The position numbers and the translations under genes are program-made. Source: Salinibacterium sp. UTAS2018 (GTDB lineage: Bacteria; Actinomycetota; Actinomycetes; Actinomycetales; Microbacteriaceae). From it: a stretch of 64,000 nt of DNA. Shown piece by piece: positions 22,263 to 33,609 of this stretch. The stretch is from the NCBI RefSeq assembly GCF_004118935.1, contig NZ_CP035375.1, forward strand, positions 806,001-870,000, in the 5' to 3' direction. The notes beneath the pieces are model-generated. The model ran no database searches, was not told the origin of the DNA, and worked only from the letters and a program-made list of their open reading frames with translations. Every line of letters starts with the position of its first letter. Positions within the stretch are counted from its first letter, which is position 1.

Positions 22263-23294
22263 CTAGGGCGTGATGAGTGCTTTGAGGGTGTTTGGATCAC
22301 GCGTCGCTTCGAACGCCTCTTCGACGCGATCGAGTGAGAAGGTACTAGTTACGAGTGACTCTAGGTCGACAGCTCCCGAAGCCACGAGCTCAATGGCTAA
22401 CGGCCAGGTATTCGCGTAACGGAAGACGCCAGTAACAAGCAACTCGCGACCTTGAATTCGTGAAACGGGCAATGAAACATCGTCTGCGCCCATGCCGACG
22501 AGCACGGCGATTCCCGCGGGGGCGAGAGCCAAGATACCCGCGCGAATGGCGGAGGGAGCACCCGACGCATCGATGAACGCGTCGACCTCCGGGACCTCGT
22601 CAGCAGATACCACGGTCGGGTCGATCACTGATGTAGCGCCGAATTCAAGCGCTCGATCACGTCTGGCTGCGGCCAGATCAGAGACAATAACCTCGGTAGC
22701 GCCATACGCCCGCGCGACCTGAGCTAGCAGGATCCCTACCGGCCCTGCACCCGCGATCAACACCCGCGATCCTGGCTGAGTCAACGCTTTTTTATGCGCC
22801 CAAATCGCCACCGATAGCGGTTCGAATAACGAGGCCGCTTCCAACGATACGGAGTCTGGAATAGCGAAAGCGTAGTCAGCCTGAATCACAGCGAATTCGG
22901 CGAACGCCCCGTGAATCGGTGGGGTCGCGTAGAACTCGATGGACGGGCACAGGTTGTAGCGCCCGCGCTTACACTGTGTGCAGATGCGGCAAGCCCGCTG
23001 CGGCTCGATCGAGACGCGCTCGCCAATTCGGTCCGCCGAGACTTCTGTTCCTACGGCGACGATCGTGCCGGATGCTTCGTGGCCGAGAATAAGTGGAGCG
23101 TCGACAACGAAGTCGCCGATTCGACCTTCATGGAAATAGTGAACATCGGAACCACAGACACCGACGGCGGCAATTCGCACCAATACCTGGTCCGAAGCCA
23201 GAACAGGGGTATCAACCTCGCGAACAACGAGGTGGTGTGCACTCTCAAGCACGCTTGCACGCATGCGGGAAGGGACTTCTTGCAAGGAGCTCAT
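22263..23294 (-). CDS. Zinc-dependent alcohol dehydrogenase, sorbitol/xylitol dehydrogenase type
   Basis: 343-aa medium-chain dehydrogenase. Catalytic zinc ligands are in GVCGSDVHYF and LILGHEASG; the four structural-zinc cysteines are intact in CRICTQCKRGRYNLC; the Rossmann motif is GAGPVG followed by the Asp-bearing VIVSDLA, suggesting NAD. The GxCGSDVHYFxxGRIGDFVV block is characteristic of polyol dehydrogenases that interconvert sugar alcohols and ketoses. It is the last gene of the sugar operon, 41 nt after the GMC gene. Inferred role: oxidation or reduction of a sugar or keto-sugar derived from the GH42 product. Confidence 0.87.
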   Translation of the reverse strand: MSSLQEVPSRMRASVLESAHHLVVREVDTPVLASDQVLVRIAAVGVCGSDVHYFHEGRIGDFVVDAPLILGHEASGTIVAVGTEVSADRIGERVSIEPQRACRICTQCKRGRYNLCPSIEFYATPPIHGAFAEFAVIQADYAFAIPDSVSLEAASLFEPLSVAIWAHKKALTQPGSRVLIAGAGPVGILLAQVARAYGATEVIVSDLAAARRDRALEFGATSVIDPTVVSADEVPEVDAFIDASGAPSAIRAGILALAPAGIAVLVGMGADDVSLPVSRIQGRELLVTGVFRYANTWPLAIELVASGAVDLESLVTSTFSLDRVEEAFEATRDPNTLKALITP

Positions 23295-23335
23295 TCTTCT
23301 GACCCTATTTCTCTAAAGTTCGGCAGGCGGGTTGG

Positions 23336-25429
23336 TTAGTGCAAAGCGTCGGCGATATGTCCTGCGACGCGAAGGGCGTTCGCGAAGATGGTTAGTGTGG
23401 GGTTCACGCTCCCGTTAGTGGGATGCAGCGAACTATCACACGCGTAGACCCGCCGTGTTCCCCACACACGACCGGTGGGAGCAGTGGCTGAAACTGCCGA
23501 GGAGCTGCCCATGCGCATGGTGCCACAGGAATGTTCCCCCGCAGCGGCGACGATCGCCGGTCCGGCCAGACGTTTCACGTCGTTCGCCCCGGCTTCGCGC
23601 AGCCACGCCGCAGCTGCGGTTGACATGAAGTCCTGAACTTCGCGGGTGCTCGAGTGCACTTCCTTGCGCAGTCGAGCGACAGGCTGCCCCCATCGGTCTG
23701 CGGCCAGAGACGAAACCTCAACCCGGGACGAGGCCATCGGAATCTCCTGACCGATCCCAAATGCACCAAACATGTGCTGTCTGCCCTCCCGCATCCACTC
23801 TTTGTGTTCGGAGCCCCATGCCGGATGCCCGAGGGCACCAGCCATACCAGCCGAGGTCACGGGCAGCATCTGGTTGAGGTCAAAAATTACCCCGCCTCCC
23901 CACGGTGACTGAGAGCTGTGCACGTGGTCGAGAGTCGCGATCGAGTGTCCCGGTCCCCGGAAGCTCTTCACCCCCGGGGAGATGTTGCCGAGGACCATCA
24001 CGAAACTGTGATCATGGAGGTGGCGACCCACCTGGTCATTGCCAAGGCCGCTCGCCGCGATAAGACGCGGGGTCTCCACAGCGCCAGCCGCAACGACGAC
24101 TACCGACGCCGTTACGTCAACCGTTTGAGGAGTCGTGCTCGCGTCAGCGACAATCTGCACTCGCGCGCCGCTGACGCCGTCTTCGATGTGAATCGCTTGG
24201 GCATCAACCATGAAGTCGCAACTCCCGGTGTTGATGGCGCGCGGGAGCAACGTGTTGTGCGCGCCACTCTTCGCATTCACCGGGCAAGCGTGGCCGACGC
24301 ACTGCGCACATTTCACGCACGCGGGACGTCCATCGTGCGGAATTGAATTCAGCGCGAGGGGCACCGGGCCCCACCTCCAGCCGAGACGATCGGCTGCCGC
24401 GCCGAGCACCTCGCGCGCTGGCTCGCTTTCCATGGCAGGCAGAGGGTAGGGTCGCGAGCGCGGGGTGCGCGAGGTGAGACCGCCTTCCTCACCGGCGACG
24501 CCCAACTCGTCTTCCGCACGACCGTAATAAGGTTCCATTTCGGCGTAATCGACTGGCCAGTCCGCGAGACTGGTCCCCTCCGGCACGCCATACGTGGTGG
24601 CCATCGCAAAGTCCTCTGGCATGAACCGCCACGCCATACCCTGCCAAAGACGGGTCCCACCGCCGACAGTCATAGCGTTGAGGCCATAGGGGCCAGCGCT
24701 ACCGTCGCCCTGAACCACAACCTCGTCGCCATCGGCGTTTTCAATAACACGCGGATGCCCTGCGCCAGGGCCAACAACTGAGTTGTAGAGGCCTGTGCGC
24801 TTGCCGTGTAGATGATCATCGCGGAGGGCGGCCTGGCTGAGCTGTAGAGCCCGCTCCACGATCAACACATTCTTTCCGCGCTCGGTGAGCACGCGGGCCG
24901 CTGATGCGCCGCCCGGCCCACTACCGATAATGACAGCGTCGTAACTACCACGGAGCTGATCGACGGTAATCGTCGGCAATAGCTCTGGTTCGACAGGCTC
25001 GACACCCTCCGGTAGTGACCTAAAACCGACCATTCCTGGCCCGGCAGGGTCTCGTCCCTCCGAAGGTGCGTAGAAGCCTTCCCAACTAATGCGCAGCAAA
25101 GTCGCGAGTTCGTCGGCGGCCTCAGCGAGTTGTCCAAGCTCGCTGAGAACCCGATCTTGTTCAGCTGCTGGAGCTCGCGAGAAGCTGGCTAGCCCGCCGC
25201 CCACGGCATCGTCTAGTCGATCCCCGAGAGAGCATAGGGCAGCGAGCGCCCAGTCCAGCTCAGGATTGATTGCAGCGTCAGCCAGTCCGCTGTCCGCGCC
25301 AGGAACGAGGTGATCTGCTACCCCTCCCTCCCAGCCGGCGGGGAAGTTGTCGGCGGGAATGATGCGATTGACGGCGGCGCGCAGCGTAGCGAGGCTGACG
25401 AGCTGACGCACAGTGCCATGAACGGTCAT
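23336..25429 (-). CDS. GMC-family flavoprotein oxidoreductase with fused N-terminal subunit-3-like domain
   Basis: 697 aa from ATG 25429 (SD-like AAGGA about 10 nt upstream; the frame stays open to 25492, overlapping the upstream gene). Residues about 10-160 (LRAAVNRIIPADNFPAGWEGGVADHL ... LATLLRISWEGFYAP) resemble the small subunit of gluconate 2-dehydrogenase/glucoside 3-dehydrogenase. From about residue 165 the FAD-binding domain begins (YDAVIIGSGPGGASAARVLTERGKNVLIVE). The C-terminus has HSCGTMRMG and NGSVNPTLTIFANALRVAGHI, the GMC active-site and FAD regions. A cysteine group (CVKCAQCVGHAC) lies mid-protein. No Tat or Sec signal is seen, so it is predicted cytosolic. Probably oxidises a sugar or glycoside; substrate unknown. 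Confidence 0.82.
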   Translation of the reverse strand: MTVHGTVRQLVSLATLRAAVNRIIPADNFPAGWEGGVADHLVPGADSGLADAAINPELDWALAALCSLGDRLDDAVGGGLASFSRAPAAEQDRVLSELGQLAEAADELATLLRISWEGFYAPSEGRDPAGPGMVGFRSLPEGVEPVEPELLPTITVDQLRGSYDAVIIGSGPGGASAARVLTERGKNVLIVERALQLSQAALRDDHLHGKRTGLYNSVVGPGAGHPRVIENADGDEVVVQGDGSAGPYGLNAMTVGGGTRLWQGMAWRFMPEDFAMATTYGVPEGTSLADWPVDYAEMEPYYGRAEDELGVAGEEGGLTSRTPRSRPYPLPAMESEPAREVLGAAADRLGWRWGPVPLALNSIPHDGRPACVKCAQCVGHACPVNAKSGAHNTLLPRAINTGSCDFMVDAQAIHIEDGVSGARVQIVADASTTPQTVDVTASVVVVAAGAVETPRLIAASGLGNDQVGRHLHDHSFVMVLGNISPGVKSFRGPGHSIATLDHVHSSQSPWGGGVIFDLNQMLPVTSAGMAGALGHPAWGSEHKEWMREGRQHMFGAFGIGQEIPMASSRVEVSSLAADRWGQPVARLRKEVHSSTREVQDFMSTAAAAWLREAGANDVKRLAGPAIVAAAGEHSCGTMRMGSSSAVSATAPTGRVWGTRRVYACDSSLHPTNGSVNPTLTIFANALRVAGHIADALH

Positions 25430-25476
25430 GAGAAGTGAGGTCCTTAGATCTGGCGGGTTTAGTGGTGATTTCAGAC

Positions 25477-26430
25477 TTAGTCGTTCAGCCACTCATCCCG
25501 GCTTGGTGTGAGCGAACGCAGCTCTGCGAATACATCAGCCGGAATCGGTGTGTCGGCGAGCGCAAGTGTCGAAGCAGCCCGTCCCGGTGTAGACATGCCG
25601 ACAACTGTGCAGTGGATGCGAAGGTCATCGAGAGAAAGCTGCAGCGCAGCCGCTGCTAGCGAAATCCCGTGTGCTGCGGCTACCTCACGCATCTTTTGCG
25701 AGGCTGCGATTGTCGCCGAGGACGCGTCTCTGTAGCTGTAGCGGGTGGTTCCGCGGGGCGCATCGGAGAGCATGCCGCCGCCGTAGGGCGCCGCATTGAT
25801 GATTCCCATGCCGCGCGATGCAGCTGCATCAAGCAGCTCATCTGCAGTGCGGTCCAGGAGAGTGAAACGATTGTGTGTCTGGAGTACTTCGAACTCCCCT
25901 GTCTCCACATAGCGCTTCATCAAGGAGGCAGGACCTCCCGCCACTCCTATGTGTTGAGCAATGCCCTGATCGCGGAGAGAACGCAATGCCGCGACCGGTC
26001 CCCCGGGCGCCATGGCATCGTCGAAGTCCATCGTCTCAGGGTCGTGGAGGTGCAGTAAAGGAACGCTATCGACGCCGAGACGTTCCAAGCTCTCCTCCGC
26101 CGAACGCAACACTTGGTCACCGCCGAAGTAACCGGTGGTCATGTCACGATCGACTTTGGTGGCGATCACCAACCCCGCCGGTGAGACCCGAGCTATCGAG
26201 GCGGCAAGGCGTTGCTCACTCCGACCAGCGCCGTAATTAGCGCCAGTGTCGACAAAGTTGAAGGAACCAGACAGGGCGTCGTCGAGCGCTGCCGCGGCGC
26301 GTTCCTCGTCAACGGAGTAGCCGTGTGCACCGGGCATATCGCCGATAGCCGAGGTGCCAATGCCGACTGCGGTCACCATTATTCCTGTGGCGCCCAGTTC
26401 GCGCCCGCGCCAGGGAGTTACAGCGGCCAT
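25477..26430 (-). CDS. Aldo/keto reductase, D-threo-aldose/L-fucose dehydrogenase-like
   Basis: 317 aa from ATG 26430, whose first base is shared with the TAA of the upstream permease (TAATG), deciding the start although the frame is open further. TIM-barrel AKR motifs: FNFVDTGANYGAGRSEQRLA with catalytic Asp/Tyr, IATKVDRD with Lys, and LLHLHDPE. The overall pattern (MxxRELGATGIMVTAVGIGTSAIG; IINAAPYGGGML) fits the group of aldose 1-dehydrogenases acting on L-fucose, D-arabinose or galactose. Expected reaction: aldose to aldonolactone with NAD(P). Its coupling to the sugar importer supports action on an imported or released monosaccharide. Confidence 0.85.
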   Translation of the reverse strand: MAAVTPWRGRELGATGIMVTAVGIGTSAIGDMPGAHGYSVDEERAAAALDDALSGSFNFVDTGANYGAGRSEQRLAASIARVSPAGLVIATKVDRDMTTGYFGGDQVLRSAEESLERLGVDSVPLLHLHDPETMDFDDAMAPGGPVAALRSLRDQGIAQHIGVAGGPASLMKRYVETGEFEVLQTHNRFTLLDRTADELLDAAASRGMGIINAAPYGGGMLSDAPRGTTRYSYRDASSATIAASQKMREVAAAHGISLAAAALQLSLDDLRIHCTVVGMSTPGRAASTLALADTPIPADVFAELRSLTPSRDEWLND

Positions 26431-27311
26431 TAGCCCTTCACCCCTCCGGCCGAGAGACCACTTTGCCAGAAGCGCTGCAAGTACAGGAACGCAATCACCA
26501 ACGGGATAATTGAGACGAACGAGCCGGTGATAACGATGGAGAAGAGCGCTAGAGCGCCACCGCCCGAAGCGCCCGCCTCTTGCCACTGTGCCAGCCCTAC
26601 TGTGAGCGGGTAGAGCTTTGCGTCAGTAAGCATGATGAGCGGAAGGAAGTAGTTATTCCATGTCGCCACCAGTGCAAAAAGAAAGACGGTCACGATTCCC
26701 GGTGCCATTAGCTTCAACGAGACCTGCCAGAAAATTCGAAATTCGCTTGCTCCATCAATTCTGGCCGCCTCAATCAGACTGTCAGGAATCGCATCAGCCG
26801 CATAAACGCGCATCAGAAAAACACCGAACGGACTCACGATAGAGGGCAAGATCACCGCGAGCGGAGTATTAGTTAAGCCAACCGAAGCAAAGAGCAGATA
26901 GCTGGGGATTGCCAGTGCAGTAGCAGGAATCATGACTGCCCCGAGAACACTGCTGAAGATGACCTTCTGCCCCGGGAACCGGTACTTAGCAAAACCATAG
27001 CCAGCGGCGGTCGCGAGCAACGCTGCGCCGACGGCGCTCACTCCCGCATAGAGAGCTGTGTTGTATCCCCAGAGCAGGAATATCCCACCGTCGTAGGTAA
27101 AGACGTTTCCTATGTTCTTGAACAGCTCAATTGAGTTTCCAAACCACAGCCCGAAAGTGGAGAACAAGTCGCCGTTGCTCTTTGTGGAAGCAATAACCAA
27201 CCAGAACAGCGGGAAGAGAAAGTAAGCCACACACGCCCACATGGCAACGGTAAGGATCGTGCTCCGACGCTGAGACGGGTCGAGAGATTTCTTCTTAGTT
27301 TTAGTGCTCAC
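26430..27311 (-). CDS. Sugar ABC transporter permease (MalG/COG0395 type)
   Basis: 293 aa with six transmembrane segments and the EAA loop SLIEAARIDGASEFRIFWQVSLKLMAPGIVTVFLFALVATWNNYFLPLIML typical of carbohydrate uptake CUT1 permeases. Overlaps the partner permease by 4 nt upstream and the AKR start by 1 nt downstream. Works with the MalF-like permease and the binding protein. No ATPase gene is in the operon, so an MsiK-like shared ATPase elsewhere in the genome is inferred, as is common in actinobacteria. Confidence 0.9.
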   Translation of the reverse strand: MSTKTKKKSLDPSQRRSTILTVAMWACVAYFLFPLFWLVIASTKSNGDLFSTFGLWFGNSIELFKNIGNVFTYDGGIFLLWGYNTALYAGVSAVGAALLATAAGYGFAKYRFPGQKVIFSSVLGAVMIPATALAIPSYLLFASVGLTNTPLAVILPSIVSPFGVFLMRVYAADAIPDSLIEAARIDGASEFRIFWQVSLKLMAPGIVTVFLFALVATWNNYFLPLIMLTDAKLYPLTVGLAQWQEAGASGGGALALFSIVITGSFVSIIPLVIAFLYLQRFWQSGLSAGGVKG

Positions 27312-28258
27312 GATGATGCCCCTTCACGGCGCTGGGCCGACAACTGAACGACGTACGACACGATCATGATCACGATTCCTAAGAGGAATGCGAGCGCCGC
27401 CGCGTAGTTCACGTTCTGGTTGATGAATGCGACGTTGTACGCGTACAAGTTCGGAGAGAAGGCCGTACCGATAGCGTTGGGAGCGATCTTGTACAGCAGG
27501 TTGGGCTCATTAAAGAGTTGGAAGCTGCCGATTACCGAGAAGATCACCGTGAGCATGATTGCGGGCCGGATAGCAGGAATCTTGATACTCCAGGCGATGC
27601 GCAGCTGTCCGGCTCCGTCCACCTGGGCGGCTTCGTAGAGCTCTGCCGGCACGCTGCGCAGCGCAGCGAACATAATGATCATGTTGTACCCGACAAACTG
27701 CCAAATCACGATGTTCATTATCGAAGGGATTACGGTCTCCGAGGAGAGAAAGTCAAGAGTTCCGAGGCCCAAGCCACGAGAAACCTGGCTGATCGGCCCG
27801 AAGTCTTTACCGTACAAATAACCCCACATGAGCGCGGCCACTACGCCGGGCACTGCGTACGGCACGAACACGGCGAGACGTACGAAACGACTTCCGCGCA
27901 CGCGTCCGCTGTCGAGAGCAAGCGCAATAATGAGCGAGAGCAACAGCATGATCGGCACTTGGATGAGCAGGAAAAGCCCCATACGTCCGATGCTTGCGAG
28001 GAAAGCGGGGTCCGCGACTGCCTGCACGTAGTTGTCGAACGCGACGAAGACCGTGCCGCCGATGAGTTGGGTCTTGAAGAGGCTCAAGTAGCCGGAATAG
28101 ACAAGAGGGACAACAAACAAGCTGAGGAATGCCAGAACAAAAGGTCCGACAAAGAAGTACGCTGCAATATTTTTGGAGCGCTGGCTGGGACTGACCCGTT
28201 TACGGGATGTCGATTTCTGCCCCGTAGCGCTGGTGCGCCGGGTGGTGGTCATGCTCAC
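27308..28258 (-). CDS. Sugar ABC transporter permease (MalF/COG1175 type)
   Basis: 316 aa. An N-terminal cytoplasmic basic stretch (RRTSATGQKSTSRKRVSPSQRSK) precedes six transmembrane helices. The EAA loop is VPAELYEAAQVDGAGQLRIAWSIKIPAIRPAIML. First of the two permeases, separated from the binding-protein gene by 71 nt containing a strong hairpin. Typical CUT1 organisation: binding protein, MalF-like, MalG-like. Confidence 0.9.
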   Translation of the reverse strand: MSMTTTRRTSATGQKSTSRKRVSPSQRSKNIAAYFFVGPFVLAFLSLFVVPLVYSGYLSLFKTQLIGGTVFVAFDNYVQAVADPAFLASIGRMGLFLLIQVPIMLLLSLIIALALDSGRVRGSRFVRLAVFVPYAVPGVVAALMWGYLYGKDFGPISQVSRGLGLGTLDFLSSETVIPSIMNIVIWQFVGYNMIIMFAALRSVPAELYEAAQVDGAGQLRIAWSIKIPAIRPAIMLTVIFSVIGSFQLFNEPNLLYKIAPNAIGTAFSPNLYAYNVAFINQNVNYAAALAFLLGIVIMIVSYVVQLSAQRREGASS

Positions 28259-28287
28259 GGCTTCTCCTTTGGATCCAGTGAGGTGCC

Positions 28288-28317
28288 GTGGCGGCCCGGC
28301 CTGAACCGAGCCGCCAC
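28288..28317 (-). terminator. Intercistronic hairpin between binding-protein and permease genes
   Basis: GTGGCGGC and GCCGCCAC form a perfect 8-bp stem around a 14-nt loop. There is no U-tract, so it is more likely a 3'-end stabiliser that lets the binding protein be made in excess of the permeases than a full terminator. Confidence 0.55.
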
Positions 28318-28329
28318 AGCAATGGGGCG

Positions 28330-29673
28330 TTACTTAACAGTGAAGCCCTGATCGGTGCCGAACGTGACGACCGCGTCCTGCCAGGCGTCGAGTCCTGCAG
28401 TGAGGTCTCCGCGATCGGCGATGGCCGATCCCAGCGTCTCGTTAAAGCTGGAGTACACGAAGTCCATATACGGCAGCCACTGGAAGTCCGGGTCAACGGT
28501 CGGTGCGATTTCCGCAAAGAGCTTATTGACCTGCTGGCCGCTATAGAATTCAGGCGCCTGGTCGGAGAAATCAGCCGACTCGAGAGTTGAAATCAACGGC
28601 GGGAACAATGACTGCTCTAACGCGAGCAGGCGTGACGATTCCTCGTCGTGGTTGATGAACTCAGCCAGCTTGTACGCTGCAATCGGGTTCTTGCTCTCGG
28701 CCATGACAGCGTCAGATGCTCCACCCCAGAATCCAGATGCGGGATTCTCTGTGTCGTACTGCGGCAGCTCGGATACGCCCCAGTTACCTGAGGTATTGGC
28801 GATTGCGCCCTCGAGGAACGTCGGACCCCATGCTGCACCCAGCCAGCTCGCGTACTTGCCCTTGGCGAGACTCTGGAACCAGTTGTCGGTGAAGTCGGGC
28901 TCGACGGAGACTAGGTCCTCGTCGATGAGCTCCTGCCAGTAGGCCATGACCTCTTTCGCTTCAGCACTGTTCAAGTCGACGCCGACTGTCTCGTCGCCGT
29001 CATAGCTAAACGGCTTAGCGCCTGCCTGCCACAAAAGCCCTACCAATTGACCCGGGTTGTTACCGGGGAAGTTGGTGATGTAGGAGCCCGTCTTGTCCTT
29101 GATAGTGCGCGCAGCGACCGCATACTCATCCCACGTCGCGGGTGGTGTTACGCCTGCCTCGGCATAGATGTCCGTGCGATAGAGGTTTCCCATGGGACCG
29201 AAATCCTGTGGGATGCCGTAGACCGCGCCCTCGGAGGAAACTTGGCCCCACACTGACGAAACATAGTCGTCTGCGATGGCATCTGCTCCATAGGGTGCCA
29301 GATCCAGCAAGTCATTCTGGAACGAAGAAATGTACTGATATTCCATCTGTACGACGTCGGGTACCTCACCGGACTTTACGGCGGTACGGAGCTTTGTGTA
29401 ATGGGAGAGACCCTGGCCGACGTTCGAAAGCTCCACCTTGATGTTGGGGTATGCCTCTTCAAACAAGTCGATCTCGGCCTGAATTTCGGGAACCCAAGAC
29501 CACATAGTGAGTGTGGTCGGTGTGTTCATCGCTTCGTCAATTTGAGCCTGCGTGATCGGCTCGGTCAGGGCATCAGGTGCTGACCCCTCGGCCGAGCAGC
29601 CAGTGAGCAGCAGAGCTGCTGCCGCGGCACCCGCCACCAGTTTCGTCGCTGCGTTGAGACGGAACATTCTCAT
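28330..29673 (-). CDS. Sugar ABC transporter substrate-binding lipoprotein (COG1653)
   Basis: 447 aa from ATG 29673 (SD AAGGA 4 nt upstream; ATG 29667 is nearly as good). The signal peptide ends in lipobox LLLTGCSAEG, so it is a membrane-anchored extracellular protein. The body (TLTMWSWVPEIQAEIDLFEEAYPNIKVELSNVGQG; VYGIPQDFGPMGNLYRTDIYAEAGVTPPATWDEYA) matches family-1 carbohydrate-binding proteins. It follows the GH42 gene by 35 nt. The ligand is presumably a galactose-containing oligosaccharide, inferred from that neighbour only. Confidence 0.9.
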   Translation of the reverse strand: MRMFRLNAATKLVAGAAAAALLLTGCSAEGSAPDALTEPITQAQIDEAMNTPTTLTMWSWVPEIQAEIDLFEEAYPNIKVELSNVGQGLSHYTKLRTAVKSGEVPDVVQMEYQYISSFQNDLLDLAPYGADAIADDYVSSVWGQVSSEGAVYGIPQDFGPMGNLYRTDIYAEAGVTPPATWDEYAVAARTIKDKTGSYITNFPGNNPGQLVGLLWQAGAKPFSYDGDETVGVDLNSAEAKEVMAYWQELIDEDLVSVEPDFTDNWFQSLAKGKYASWLGAAWGPTFLEGAIANTSGNWGVSELPQYDTENPASGFWGGASDAVMAESKNPIAAYKLAEFINHDEESSRLLALEQSLFPPLISTLESADFSDQAPEFYSGQQVNKLFAEIAPTVDPDFQWLPYMDFVYSSFNETLGSAIADRGDLTAGLDAWQDAVVTFGTDQGFTVK

Positions 29674-29708
29674 TTTTTCCTTTCCTTGGGCAACCGGGAT
29701 CGGTTGCG

Positions 29709-31841
29709 CTAAGCTCCCGCATTCCCGACCAGTATCCGTACGGACCATGGCTCGAGAATGAGGACAGATGATTCGGCGATCGAGTCTCCACCGATAAGGT
29801 CGCGCAGAGGCCCGTCAGCCGGTGTGGTGGCATTCGCGACCTCCGGCGTCCAGTTGTGCACGAACCACACTCGCTCCCCGGCGTCATTGATACCCGAGGA
29901 GACATTCACGCCAACACCTAAGTCACTCCAGACTGAGGAAATCGGCGTTGGTGAAAACCAACGGCCGAGGTCTTTGCCGAGAACCGCGTTGGGCACCGTG
30001 CCTACGACGGTTACACGACCGGCACCGCTTTGTGCGCTCGTCATCGCGGCGAAACGGCCGAAACTGTGGTGCACATAGCCGAGCATTACGTCTGCTCCGT
30101 TCGGAGTGAGACCTTCGATCCATCGAGTGGCTTCGGCGCCCGGCGACAGCAAAAAACTAGGCGCGGTGACGTCGACAGTTTTTACTGCGATACTCGCATC
30201 GATATTGGAGAATTCATCGTAGGACGCGCCCGCTACGTCAGCGAGCATCGGCGGGGCTACGGCCATTCGTGCACGTGCCTCTTCATCGCCGTACGCCGTT
30301 CGAGGCCCAATGACAAGGTGCCCTCCACTCTCGGTGTAAGCGAGCAGTCGCTCGAGAGCATCGTCGCTGGCAGCGTACAAACCAGGAACAACGAGCACCG
30401 GGAAACGCTTGACGAACGTGTCGATGTCGCAGTCTAAGAATTGCGACACATTGACAATTCGTGCTTGCGCACCCGATTCGATAACGCCGCGATAGAACGC
30501 ATTAAAGATTGTTGGGTACGATCCGCGATCGGGCTTATGATCTTCCGTCGCTAGCGGCGGGAAGAATTCGAGGGCCCACTTACTCTCAGTCGAGTACAGA
30601 AAAGCGACATCCGCGTCAGGCGTGTAACCGCTCATCGCCGGCCCGATCGCACGGAGTTTAGCGCCAAGCTCGGCGATCTCGTTGTACACGCGACCTGGCT
30701 TTTGGCTGTGAGGCAAAATGCCAACCCAGTAAGTTTCGGTCCCAAAGTGCAAAGTGTGCCAGTGCCAGTATTCGATCATGCTGGCCCCACGCGCAACTAG
30801 AGCGAGAGCGGCCTGGGCGAGCTGACCCGGGTAGGGTGGATAATTTTGTTCGGATCCGCCGATGGCACCTGCGTTAGTCTCGGTGACGAGAAAGCGCTCT
30901 TGGCGCGATGCGAACATACGGTCGGCTTGATTAGTAAGACCCCATACGCTGTTGCTCGCCCACGATTGGCGCGGTTCAATGATGCTCGTGGCATCAAGGC
31001 CATCCTGCATTTCGTAATAAGGGTTGCCCGCCGTAATGTCGAGCACCTTGGTGAGCTCTTCATCGTTCACCGCGGGGCGAGGGTACGCGATGCAGGTGGT
31101 GACGAACTGAGCGTCGTCGGCATACTCGCGCACAATGTCAGCTTGCCAACCGATGAAGTTTGTCGTGAGCTCCGCTTGGTAGGTTCGCCATGCAAGATCG
31201 TATTGCGGCAACGTATTACCGTCGGGAACCCAGAGCTGATTCCACTCGCTGATGCGGTGTGACCAGTAGACGAGGCCCCACTCGTGGTTGAGGGTGTCGG
31301 TGTCGCCGTAGCGTGCTTTTAGCCACTGCACGAAGCCCGCGAAGGTACCGGGGTTGTGAAAGAGCTCGAGGCCGGGCTCGTTGTCGACCTGATAGCCGAT
31401 CACGGCAGGGTGGCTCGAGTAACGACCAACAACCGCACGAATGATGCGTTCTGCGTATGTTCGGAACAGCGGGCTCGAGTAGTCAACTTCCTGACGACCG
31501 CCCCAGCTCAGAGGGGTTCCCGTTGCGGAATGAGCCAGGAGCTCTGGATGCTTCGTCTGAAGCCACGGAGGCAGCGCGTAAGTCGGGGTGCCGAGGATGA
31601 CGTGAATTCCACGCGCGTGCGCACCGTCAAGAATTGGCTCAAGCCACTCAAGGTTGAAGGTGTTGTCTTCGGGTTCCCACGTGGACCACACTGACTCTCC
31701 AACACGGATGACGCTGAAGTTCGCCTGCTGCATGAGATCAAGATCGAGGTCAAGCCGCTCGATCGTTTGGTACTCGTTGTAGTACGCAGCGCCGAAAAGA
31801 ATGAGGTCTTTGTCGACATTGCGGGCGTCATTGCGTGTCAC
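29709..31841 (-). CDS. Glycoside hydrolase family 42 beta-galactosidase
   Basis: 710 aa from GTG 31841 (GGAG 9 nt upstream). The TIM-barrel domain starts LILFGAAYYNEYQTIERLDLDLDLMQQANFSVIRVGESVWSTWEPEDNTF. The acid/base Glu is E155 in GYQVDNEPG and the nucleophile is E321 in FLVTETNAG. The trimerisation/Rossmann-like domain and a C-terminal beta domain follow. No signal peptide: a cytoplasmic enzyme that cleaves imported oligosaccharides. GH42 enzymes act on beta-galactosides, and some on alpha-L-arabinopyranosides, so the released sugar is galactose or arabinose. First structural gene of the operon, directly after the operators. Confidence 0.92.
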   Translation of the reverse strand: MTRNDARNVDKDLILFGAAYYNEYQTIERLDLDLDLMQQANFSVIRVGESVWSTWEPEDNTFNLEWLEPILDGAHARGIHVILGTPTYALPPWLQTKHPELLAHSATGTPLSWGGRQEVDYSSPLFRTYAERIIRAVVGRYSSHPAVIGYQVDNEPGLELFHNPGTFAGFVQWLKARYGDTDTLNHEWGLVYWSHRISEWNQLWVPDGNTLPQYDLAWRTYQAELTTNFIGWQADIVREYADDAQFVTTCIAYPRPAVNDEELTKVLDITAGNPYYEMQDGLDATSIIEPRQSWASNSVWGLTNQADRMFASRQERFLVTETNAGAIGGSEQNYPPYPGQLAQAALALVARGASMIEYWHWHTLHFGTETYWVGILPHSQKPGRVYNEIAELGAKLRAIGPAMSGYTPDADVAFLYSTESKWALEFFPPLATEDHKPDRGSYPTIFNAFYRGVIESGAQARIVNVSQFLDCDIDTFVKRFPVLVVPGLYAASDDALERLLAYTESGGHLVIGPRTAYGDEEARARMAVAPPMLADVAGASYDEFSNIDASIAVKTVDVTAPSFLLSPGAEATRWIEGLTPNGADVMLGYVHHSFGRFAAMTSAQSGAGRVTVVGTVPNAVLGKDLGRWFSPTPISSVWSDLGVGVNVSSGINDAGERVWFVHNWTPEVANATTPADGPLRDLIGGDSIAESSVLILEPWSVRILVGNAGA

Positions 31842-31876
31842 TGAGAATACTCCATTGTTGTTCGCGATCCCCGGTT

Positions 31877-31890
31877 TGTTACCGGAAACA
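31877..31890. promoter_or_regulatory. LacI-type operator O1
   Basis: TGTTACCGGAAACA, a palindrome around a central CG except for one base pair, as expected for LacI-family operators. An identical copy lies 42 bp away. It overlaps the likely -10 of the GH42 operon. Confidence 0.75.
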
Positions 31891-31916
31891 TTGGCACAAC
31901 GACGAAGCTACAGCAA
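31888..31916 (-). promoter_or_regulatory. Candidate promoter of the sugar operon
   Basis: On the minus strand -35 TTGCTG (31916-31911) and -10 CAATGT (31893-31888) are separated by 17 nt. It lies between the two operators, with the -10 entering O1. The -10 is a weak match. Confidence 0.4.
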
Positions 31917-31918
31917 AA

Positions 31919-31932
31919 TGTTACCGGAAACA
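31919..31932. promoter_or_regulatory. LacI-type operator O2
   Basis: Second identical TGTTACCGGAAACA. Centre-to-centre distance to O1 is 42 bp, about four helical turns, suited to cooperative or looped repressor binding. Confidence 0.75.
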
Positions 31933-32029
31933 AGCATGGTTTCAGAGTCGGGAAAAAGTCACGCCTAAACACATGCCGCGACGCCCCTCTGACACCGGAA
32001 CCGGGCGCGTCGTTAGCTGTAAAGCGAAG

Positions 32030-33079
32030 CTAGGCGACGGGGGCGCGAGCTGTTGACGAGCGCAGAACAAGGTCGGCCGACACGTAATCTTCGCGAACGG
32101 GCGCCTCAGAATTATGAATCATCGAGAGCAGCATGTCGATGCTGTACTTGCCTTGCATATCGAAATGCGTCTGAACCGTCGTGAGGGGGGGTAGAAAAAA
32201 TTCTGACTCCGGAATGTCGTCAAAACCGACGACGCTCATGTCATCCGGCACCGCGACACCTCGCTCAATGAGCGCACGCACAACCCCAAGGGCGACCTGA
32301 TCATTGGTCGCTACAATCGCGGTGACCCCTCGGTCAAGAGGCATCTGTCGCGCAAGCTTGTAGCCAGAGGCGGCCGACCAATCCGTGTGAAGTGAGTCGA
32401 GCGGTTCGAGACCTCGGTGCAGCATCGCTCGGCGATAAGCATTCACACGATTAAGCGACGCGATCCAACTTGGCGGCCCGGCAATATTCAGGATCGTCGT
32501 GTGGCCCTGATCCACAAGATGGTCTACTAACTTTCGCGTGCCAACCGCGTTCAAACTCTCGTGCTCGGCACCAAGTTCATCTTCACGCTCAGTCTCAATG
32601 TAGAGAGGCACACCGAAATCCGCAGCTTCCAGCGCCTCACGCACGCGGTCGGTCGGAGCGCTTGCGATCACCCCCGCCAAGTTCTGTTGATACATCTCGT
32701 TGATTGCGTTCTGGGTCGCCTCGTCATCAGAGGGGAAAAGCGTGACAAGATCCAGCATGTAGCCGGCGTCACGTGCACGGCGGCTCGCTCCCTGCATGAT
32801 CTGGCTTGGCCCGACCTCTAGCATTTCGTAAGCGAAAGCGCCGATACGGAGGGAGCGGTTGGTCGCAAGAGTTCGCGCAGCTTGGTTGGGGCGGTAGTTC
32901 AGCTCCGCGAGAGCCAGTTCAACGCGCTCGCGAGTTTCGGGTCGAATTCCCGGATACTTGCGAAGGTACCGCGACACCGTCTGGTGGGAGACCTTTGCTC
33001 GCGCAGCGACGTCATAAATAGTGGCTGCGCGCGACAGCTTTGAGGTACCGTCCTCGTCCGTTGCAACTCGCGTAGACAT
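32030..33079 (-). CDS. LacI-family transcriptional regulator
   Basis: 349 aa from ATG 33079, chosen because GAGGAG lies 4-5 nt upstream; the frame is open to 33136. The helix-turn-helix and hinge read ATIYDVAARAKVSHQTVSRYLRKYPGIRPETRERVELALAELNYRPNQAARTLAT. The periplasmic-binding-like effector domain follows (VVGFDDIPESEFFLPPLTTVQTHFDMQGKYSIDMLLSMI). It lies upstream of and co-oriented with the GH42 operon, with a 188-bp gap containing two identical operators. Expected to repress the operon until a sugar ligand binds. Confidence 0.9.
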   Translation of the reverse strand: MSTRVATDEDGTSKLSRAATIYDVAARAKVSHQTVSRYLRKYPGIRPETRERVELALAELNYRPNQAARTLATNRSLRIGAFAYEMLEVGPSQIMQGASRRARDAGYMLDLVTLFPSDDEATQNAINEMYQQNLAGVIASAPTDRVREALEAADFGVPLYIETEREDELGAEHESLNAVGTRKLVDHLVDQGHTTILNIAGPPSWIASLNRVNAYRRAMLHRGLEPLDSLHTDWSAASGYKLARQMPLDRGVTAIVATNDQVALGVVRALIERGVAVPDDMSVVGFDDIPESEFFLPPLTTVQTHFDMQGKYSIDMLLSMIHNSEAPVREDYVSADLVLRSSTARAPVA

Positions 33080-33495
33080 ACTGCTCCTCACTTCGGGATC
33101 TGCAGAACCCGCTAGGGGCGCAGTTACACCAACCATAGAACTTTCCGGGGAAATATTTGCCGTAACTGCTCAAATCCTCGTGCCACCGCCGTCTCCGACA
33201 CAGCGCCCAGCGCATCACATAAGCGCATTTCACAGTAGGACTCGCCACGAAACGCGTGCACCTCATCGGCATCGCGTGGTGGTGCCCTCTCGCCACAGCA
33301 GAACTATCGCTTGCCTATCCACCACATTTTTCGGAGTCGAACACCGACGCCGTTCCTCAGATCGAGAGATCGCCGGACAGCCGCGACACGCTCGGGCATG
33401 ATGAAGTTAAGAGCCTACGATCTCTCTGGATCCTTCGTCGCCGTGCGTTGTATGCACCCCGACGAACGGCACTCTAGAAAGCACGTAGACACAAC
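33080..33495. other. Region upstream of lacI without a recognised gene
   Basis: About 415 bp between the lacI start and the tRNA terminator. It holds a 12-bp inverted repeat, TTTCCGGGGAAA, near 33141-33152, which loosely resembles the LacI operators (CCGG core) and may serve lacI itself. Short open frames here have no recognisable similarity. Confidence 0.4.
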
Positions 33496-33532: not shown

Positions 33533-33609
33533 TGGTGGATCCAAGGGGATTCGAACCCCTGACCCCCTGCATGCCATGCAGGTGCGCTACCGGGCTGCGC
33601 CATGGACCC
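33533..33609 (-). tRNA. tRNA-Ala (GGC anticodon), CCA encoded
   Basis: Full cloverleaf on the minus strand: acceptor GGGTCCA/TGGATCC including the G3-U70 wobble that identifies alanine tRNAs; D arm GCGC...GCGC; anticodon stem CCTGC/GCAGG with loop ATGGCAT (anticodon GGC); T arm AGGGG TTCGAAT CCCCT; discriminator A and encoded CCA at 33533-33535. Its 3' end faces the sugar operon. Confidence 0.95.

Follow-up and report, generated by a model that had tools for sequence, protein, structure and literature searches.

A LacI-associated GH42 glycosidase and importer operon of Salinibacterium sp. UTAS2018, possibly extended by a tail for glycoside oxidation

The nearest solved relatives of the GH42 glycosidase and the sugar-binding protein described here come from Bifidobacterium animalis subsp. 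lactis. They are the alpha-L-arabinopyranosidase BlArap42B (5xb7), in which Trp358 replaces a His and fills the space of the galactose C6-OH, and the beta-1,6-galactobiose binder Bal6GBP (6h0h) (PMC8106489). Here we describe an operon of Salinibacterium sp. UTAS2018 that is contained in a stretch of 64,000 nucleotides (contig NZ_CP035375.1, positions 806,001 to 870,000; in the following "the window"). Like the B. animalis systems it combines an ABC importer with a GH42 enzyme in one locus, and the Trp in the -1 subsite is common to both. Unlike them, it has LacI operators and three additional oxidoreductase genes, which encode an AKR, a GMC flavoprotein, and a zinc MDR dehydrogenase. In our view there is an even chance that a common arabinopyranoside/galactoside operon has been extended in a lineage-specific manner by a tail for glycoside oxidation, the reactions of which we infer.

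Oxidation of glycosides is known from several flavin enzymes. GlycDH of Agrobacterium oxidizes glycosides at C3, and its operon encodes a Gfo oxidoreductase and two enzymes of the sugar phosphate isomerase/epimerase type, one of which was shown to be an eliminase, while the other was proposed to be a hydratase (PMC10628242). The FAD-GO subfamily has a partner protein of the twin-arginine translocation (TAT) type and is active on ginsenosides (PMC4650693). Together, GlycDH and FAD-GO represent a glycoside 3-dehydrogenase pathway of Agrobacterium and Rhizobium GIN611, the flavin enzyme of which belongs to the GMC family and has a TAT-type partner protein. The actinobacterial pyranose oxidases and C-glycoside 3-oxidases (POx/CGOx), likewise members of the GMC superfamily, are also known to oxidize glycosides at C3. 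The literature within coverage, which leaves out most subscription journals, contained nothing on the combination of GH42, GMC, AKR, ABC transporter, and LacI beyond a Vibrio genomics paper, and no description of a fused cytosolic enzyme among the work on GMC proteins and 3-keto-glycosides.

A common core with an uncommon tail

All eight genes are located on the minus strand, and in the order of transcription they encode a LacI-family repressor, the GH42 glycosidase, the sugar-binding lipoprotein of the importer (SBP), two ABC permeases (PermF and PermG), the AKR, the GMC flavoprotein, and the zinc MDR. The initial annotation of this DNA had named the same genes and families, and all of them were confirmed. 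Neighborhoods were counted in 299 sampled genomes of the family, including the own genome, and in 26 congeners; 3 GMC, 3 GH42, 5 SBP, 7 AKR, and 7 MDR candidates were scored per genome, and copies may thus be missed. The GH42 was found with an E value of 1e-100 or better in 59 of the 299 family genomes, the own one included. GH42, SBP, PermF, and PermG are contiguous and on one strand in 22 of the 28 loci that were laid out, the six exceptions being a contig end (L188), a rearrangement (L192), a lone GH42 gene (L195), two loci with another importer (L238 and L259), and one with another order (L260); L238, L259, and L260 are included in this layout and omitted from a tally of 25 loci. In other genomes this GH42 operon is likewise adjoined by LacI relatives (39-55% identity), which in a few cases are encoded on the opposite strand. 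The LacI-GH42-SBP-permease part is therefore ordinary within the family.

The genes that follow PermG differ. The next gene is a second, distant GH42 gene in 14 of the 22 contiguous loci and a Gfo/Idh-like gene in two (L187 and L257), and the arrangement AKR-GMC-MDR was found in none of the 22. Among the 26 congeners, two contain a GH42 gene with more than 50% identity, in a different arrangement, and none contains a GMC gene with more than 47% identity.

Co-occurrence was quantified as the number of genomes, out of those with both genes, in which the two are no more than 15 kb apart, and a uniform distribution of positions on 3.5 Mb was used as the chance model. The own genome, two extra MDR rows of one genome (G129), the second half of a broken GMC gene, and SBP rows with less than about 49% identity (which left 46) were excluded. 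GH42 and SBP were paired in 37 of 40 genomes. The AKR was found near GH42 in 4 of 36 genomes, versus about 0.6 (0.58) pairs expected, and near SBP in 4 of 28. No pairs of SBP with GMC (0/14) or MDR (0/9) were found, and the three oxidoreductases were hardly paired with one another (AKR-GMC 1/28, AKR-MDR 1/19, GMC-MDR 1/11). Because of these low counts, AKR, GMC, and MDR do not form a conserved module, and of the three only the AKR is modestly linked to galactosidases.

The GH42 protein (29709..31841, minus strand) matches the Pfam models of the catalytic, trimerisation, and C-terminal domains (GH42, GH42M, and GH42C), the last one exactly at the cut-off of 21 bits. The closest solved structure, 5xb7, is distantly related (303 bits), and by residue count in the HMMER alignment Trp372 (codon at 30726..30728, minus strand) is aligned with Trp358 of BlArap42B. 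Because of this correspondence the enzyme may not be a plain beta-galactosidase, and a preference for alpha-L-arabinopyranosyl (alpha-L-Arap) residues is predicted. The galactoside-type sugar that had been proposed as the substrate is thus doubtful, and beta-galactosyl residues may perhaps be accepted as well. At all 30 places in the fetched loci that encode a family GH42 with at least 48% identity (29 relatives and the window), Trp is present at this position, whereas the distant GH42 proteins have His (17 of 18) or Leu (1 of 18). In the contiguous loci with a second GH42 gene, His was found in all 13 readable cases, and the paired GH42 genes look like one enzyme of the arabinopyranosidase type and one of the galactosidase type, a prediction from the marker residue. 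For the SBP (28330..29673, minus strand; Pfam SBP_bac_1) the nearest PDB entries are 6h0h and 6q5g. Vicianose is a 1,6-linked Arap-glucose disaccharide. A sugar of this type would fit both the GH42 enzyme and a 6h0h-type SBP.

Two further GH42 arrangements were observed. The own genome contains a second operon with a GH42 of the His type and its own SBP and permease genes (L261:6006-12445, about 1.622-1.628 Mb); its LacI gene is encoded on the opposite strand. In another genome (L238:3706-8323) and in a congener (L259:8251-11474), an arabinopyranosidase-type GH42 gene is directly followed by Gfo/Idh/MocA genes, which represents another pairing of GH42 with oxidoreductases.

Regulation and gene junctions

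The LacI-family gene (32030..33136, start perhaps at 33079, minus strand; Pfam LacI and Peripla_BP_3) is separated from the GH42 gene by 188 bp. This gap contains two copies of the 14-bp near-palindrome TGTTTCCGGTAACA, at 31919..31932 and, 42 bp away, at 31877..31890 (minus strand), which are predicted to be LacI-type operators. The pattern has four matches in the window (two sites on both strands), versus 0.18 expected, and four matches were reached in none of 100 shuffles. In the whole genome of 2.995 Mb, with up to one mismatch, the two sites upstream of GH42 are the only ones. Similar palindromes, e.g., TGTTACCGGTAACA or TGTTGTCGACAACA, are present in the 300 bp upstream of GH42 in all 24 orthologous loci examined. 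From GH42 to MDR all terminator-like sites are weak, and their number in the scanned stretch is at chance level (14 versus 11.3 expected). Taken from the sequence, this is good evidence for a dedicated LacI regulator and a single regulated transcript that begins upstream of GH42. Given the position of both operators, between LacI and GH42, the transcription unit under their control probably extends from GH42 to MDR (31841-22263), and lacI is located upstream of it in the same orientation. The earlier view of one LacI-controlled unit is supported by the operator pair, which is unique in the genome.

The genes had also been described as overlapping or closely spaced, and the close spacing was confirmed, but with the likely start sites AKR and GMC would not overlap. 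Open reading frames (ORFs) called by script are crude in DNA with this high G+C content, and the starts of SBP, AKR, and GMC were revised on the basis of gene overlap, an AAGGA motif resembling a ribosome-binding site, and homologue length. The likely start of SBP is at 29673. The longest ORF of the AKR starts within the permease gene, and the likely start, ATG at 26430, results in a protein of 317 aa and a 1-base overlap with the permease stop codon. The longest ORF of GMC begins at 25492; translation more likely begins with the ATG at 25429, which is preceded by AAGGA. The resulting protein has 697 aa, as in its database record (P0001), and the gap to the AKR gene becomes 47 bp. By coordinates, GH42 and SBP are 35 bp apart, SBP and PermF (27308..28258, minus strand, Pfam) 71 bp, and GMC and MDR 41 bp, and PermF overlaps PermG (26430..27311, minus strand, Pfam) by 4 bp.

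The flanks of the operon appear unrelated to it, with a DUF2130 gene downstream and a gene for a MetQ-type lipoprotein and a tRNA-Ala gene (33533-33609) upstream. A genomic island at the tRNA-Ala gene was considered and rejected, as the search did not yield a direct repeat derived from the tRNA; the sole repeat of at least 18 bp (seed 12), a 27-mer in two copies, appears to be a chance occurrence.

The GMC flavoprotein and its relatives

The GMC gene (23336..25429, minus strand) encodes a flavoprotein with a fused N-terminal domain that resembles Gluconate_2-dh3, the hitchhiker or gamma subunit. With hhalign this domain was matched to a split subunit of Microvirga with a probability of 98% and to one of Bacteroidales with 64%; the window protein did not reach the cut-off of the Pfam model PF13618 (E 0.008), and the relative P0002 exceeded it. 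In the 718-aa ORF numbering, the alignment rows mainly span residues 177-718. C392, C395, C398, H654, and N697 are present in all 60 aligned GMC sequences and C403 in 59 of them; the cysteine cluster C392-C395-C398-C403 is encoded at 24284..24319 (minus strand). Among known structures, fructose dehydrogenase and the FAD glucose dehydrogenase of B. cepacia (BcGDH) match best. H654/N697 represent the His/Asn catalytic pair, with His476/Asn519 as the BcGDH counterpart, and C392, C398, and C403 match Cys212, Cys218, and Cys222 of BcGDH with one inserted residue, which predicts a 3Fe-4S cluster. Fold, His/Asn pair, and cysteine cluster are thus common to the window GMC and to BcGDH (6a2u/8grj) and Gluconobacter fructose dehydrogenase, which are enzymes of the direct-electron-transfer (DET) type. 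Unlike these, the window GMC is a single chain with one extra invariant Cys, no secretion signal was found, and its operon does not contain a cytochrome c gene. A TAT motif (RRxFL-like, within the first 40 residues) was found in none of the 60 GMC sequences and no cytochrome gene was detected with Pfam in the operon, so that the TAT export and multiheme cytochrome c of DET-type enzymes both lack a counterpart. The window GMC is probably cytosolic. An assignment to the POx/C-glycoside oxidases was rejected, because sequence and fold match them less well than the glucose and fructose dehydrogenases.

The genomic context of GMC relatives was analyzed for 22 orthologue loci with at least 56% identity, two of which are from Desertihabitans aurantiacus and Auraticoccus cholistanensis; the distant loci L054 and L056-L064 (38-49% identity) were outside this gene-by-gene annotation. 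A PermG-like gene of a different importer is located just upstream of GMC in all 22. Gfo/Idh and ThuA genes were found in at least 13 of the loci, a second Gfo/Idh gene in at least 11, an AP_endonuc_2 gene in at least 9, and a GH3 gene in at least 6; these are lower bounds, as several loci end at contig ends. On a plasmid of Deinococcus aetherius (GMC 42% identical), genes for GH3, GMC, a sugar phosphate isomerase/epimerase, Gfo/Idh, and an isomerase/epimerase follow in a row behind an ABC importer. Relatives of the window GMC therefore have Gfo/Idh and isomerase/epimerase-type partners, as in the GlycDH pathway. Because of this resemblance of the neighbors to the GlycDH operon, and by analogy, the GMC family of the window type probably makes 3-keto-glycosides. 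Compared by description rather than by sequence, the window GMC differs from GlycDH and FAD-GO in that its partner domain is fused, the TAT motif is absent, and no Gfo, eliminase, or hydratase genes are located beside it.

In one locus (L055:8948-10950) the GMC orthologue, of genome G009, is broken into two frames with an internal TGA. A plasmid origin of the module was considered and rejected: the best plasmid matches had only 42% (GMC) and 47% (AKR) identity, and no common neighborhood was seen in the 5 of 10 matches that were opened, one of which was unannotated.

A possible pathway and its alternatives

The reading that we favor, and to which we give an even chance, starts from a widespread, LacI-repressed operon for alpha-L-arabinopyranosyl, perhaps also beta-galactosyl, glycosides, which would have gained AKR-GMC-MDR in the 3' slot that in relatives often carries a second GH42 gene. 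The SBP and the two permeases, together with an ATPase encoded elsewhere, would take up a 1,6-linked disaccharide or glycoside whose terminal residue is alpha-L-Arap (vicianose-like) or beta-Gal, as suggested by the 6h0h-type SBP. The terminal sugar, probably L-arabinose in view of Trp372, would be removed by GH42 and enter the AraA/AraB/AraD route. The genes araB, araD, and araA adjoin one another at a different site of the genome; the AraB and AraA matches are above equivalog cut-offs and the AraD match is above a subfamily cut-off, and the AraA cut-off is exceeded in 11 of 27 genomes of the genus. The probably cytosolic GMC would then oxidize a ring hydroxyl, most likely at C3 given the neighbors of its relatives, of the remaining or incoming glycoside, and electrons would pass from FAD via the Fe-S-type cysteine cluster to some acceptor. 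AKR and MDR might convert the released aldose or the keto-sugar in NAD(P)-linked reactions.

A more specific version, which we regard as speculative, would view the GMC as a single-chain, cytosolic glycoside 3-dehydrogenase of the Fe-S type that has been freed from export and cytochrome and coupled to an arabinopyranosidase. Vicianose-type glycosides would be uncapped by GH42, the glucoside would then be opened by oxidation instead of a second hydrolase, and AKR and MDR would replace the Gfo/Idh step.

Two other features of the araBDA region were observed. A heliorhodopsin gene (Pfam; L270:10841-11644, about 2458840-2459643) directly follows the araB-araD-araA operon, and a ThuA-family gene (L270:3713-4411), the product of which is 59% identical to ThuA of the GMC-linked clusters, is located upstream of a LacI gene and araBDA.

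Several results weigh against an operon extended by glycoside oxidation. In no other genome were GMC (0/16) or MDR (0/12) found within 15 kb of GH42. No relative of Gfo/Idh, ThuA, or AP_endonuc_2 was found in the window, with most of the genome unsearched for Gfo/Idh and AP_endonuc_2, and therefore the partners that would complete a 3-keto-glycoside pathway are missing beside the window GMC. Of the 22 loci with a GMC orthologue, nine have neither Gfo/Idh nor ThuA in the part covered, which amounts to about 20 kb in five of them, and a GMC relative on a Paenibacillus plasmid (39% identity) is without such neighbors. The window GMC is an outgroup (61-65% identity) to 20 orthologues that are 66-94% alike, and therefore its substrate may differ. 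In addition, some GH42 enzymes are described to hydrolyze galactosides as well as arabinopyranosides (PMC10673005). The neighborhoods thus mostly argue against one conserved pathway, and the single oxidative pathway suggested by the initial annotation is partly supported at most. The initial annotation had named rarity of the oxidoreductases beside GH42 as grounds to reject its proposal, and GMC and MDR indeed show this rarity; the AKR is rare there as well, but found above chance.

An oxidative route had originally been suggested on the basis of absent kinase and aldolase genes. This argument is not supported, because AraB, AraD, AraA, and a galactonate dehydratase are encoded elsewhere; the lack of a kinase gene in the operon does not point to oxidation, either route could be used, and the gene list of the operon does not decide between them. 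Such a route is nevertheless conceivable: GH42 would free galactose or L-arabinose, the AKR would form a lactone by oxidation at C1, the aldonate would be dehydrated and cleaved by enzymes encoded elsewhere, and GMC and MDR would generate further keto-acids. The AKR (25477..26430, minus strand; Pfam) provides arguments for it. The tetrad D61-Y66-K92-H129 is kept in all 50 aligned rows, the nearest structures are L-galactose dehydrogenases, and many relatives are named D-threo-aldose 1-dehydrogenase by the source database. An L-galactose/D-threo-aldose 1-dehydrogenase type with predicted oxidation at C1 is supported by these matches; no NCBIfam model was above its cut-off for the AKR. The AKRs of genomes G262 (LacI-SBP-PermF-PermG-GH42-AKR) and G101 (SBP-PermF-PermG-GH2-AKR), which are 42 and 46% identical to the window AKR, are encoded behind a related importer and a galactosidase. 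In the neighboring AKR clade, 7 of 9 genome members have GH42 or GH2 within 15 kb, a count that was read off the tree post hoc and whose exceptions, L219 and L207, were scanned over only 7 and 3 ORFs. Together with the AKR-GH42 pairs above chance and the galactonate dehydratase model, which is exceeded elsewhere in the genome with 574 bits versus a cut-off of 311, this argues for oxidation at C1. However, the node that joins the window AKR to the galactosidase-linked clade has a support of only 0.386. The nearest AKR relatives listed (P0122-P0140, 57-62% identity) are from short contigs. D-threo-aldose enzymes act on sugars with a C2/C3 configuration opposite to that of galactose and L-arabinose, which also speaks against this route. 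None of the operon genes encodes a lactonase, dehydratase, kinase, or aldolase, so that a self-contained aldonate pathway is not present. The genome contains one ILVD_EDD protein, and thus no IlvD-type arabonate dehydratase beside the probable housekeeping IlvD; of its five MR_MLE matches four were scanned, one of which exceeded the galactonate dehydratase cut-off and one the o-succinylbenzoate synthase cut-off. With AraBDA present as well, we consider the oxidative route unlikely.

It is likewise improbable, in our estimation, that AKR, GMC, and MDR are co-transcribed passengers inserted behind the GH42 operon that act on unrelated substrates. This would be in agreement with the lack of GMC and MDR relatives near GH42 in other family genomes at the thresholds used, with the lack of a GMC above 47% identity in the 26 congeners, and with the different contexts in which the three families usually occur, namely, another importer for GMC, an FGGY kinase for MDR (one locus), and SDR epimerases or galactosidases for AKR. 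However, the tight spacing behind one operator pair, the intact catalytic residues that were checked in AKR and GMC, and the fact that relatives carry another GH42 gene or Gfo/Idh-like genes in the 3' slot, with an AKR similarly placed in G262 and G101, argue against mere passengers. An AKR gene (47% identity) directly followed by a GMC gene without the fused domain (31%) was also observed between two LacI genes in L216:7767-10360.

The zinc MDR (22263..23294, minus strand) was assigned by Pfam and structure matches to the sorbitol/polyol dehydrogenase type, and the assignments of an aldose-dehydrogenase-like AKR, a GMC fusion, and a polyol-type MDR thereby held up. Relatives with 67-70% identity are present in 13 other family genomes. 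A reductive, fungal-like L-arabinose route, in which the AKR would form arabinitol, the MDR a ketose, and the GMC would have a separate role, is very unlikely: the MDR resembles sorbitol, L-arabinitol 4-, and xylitol dehydrogenase structures, in the single locus examined the gene for a 70% relative overlaps one for an FGGY kinase, and the freed sugar is probably L-arabinose, but the AKR is of the aldose 1-dehydrogenase type and not a known aldose reductase, and the detour would be unnecessary given AraBDA.

The regulator, with only two sites in the genome, makes the operon genetically tractable. The fused GMC family unites features of DET-type sugar dehydrogenases and of 3-keto-glycoside pathways in one chain, which raises the question of where the electrons go. 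And, because the arabinopyranosidase Trp is present in all 29 fetched GH42 relatives, operons of this actinobacterial family that would be annotated as beta-galactosidase operons may serve the utilization of arabinose-capped plant glycosides.

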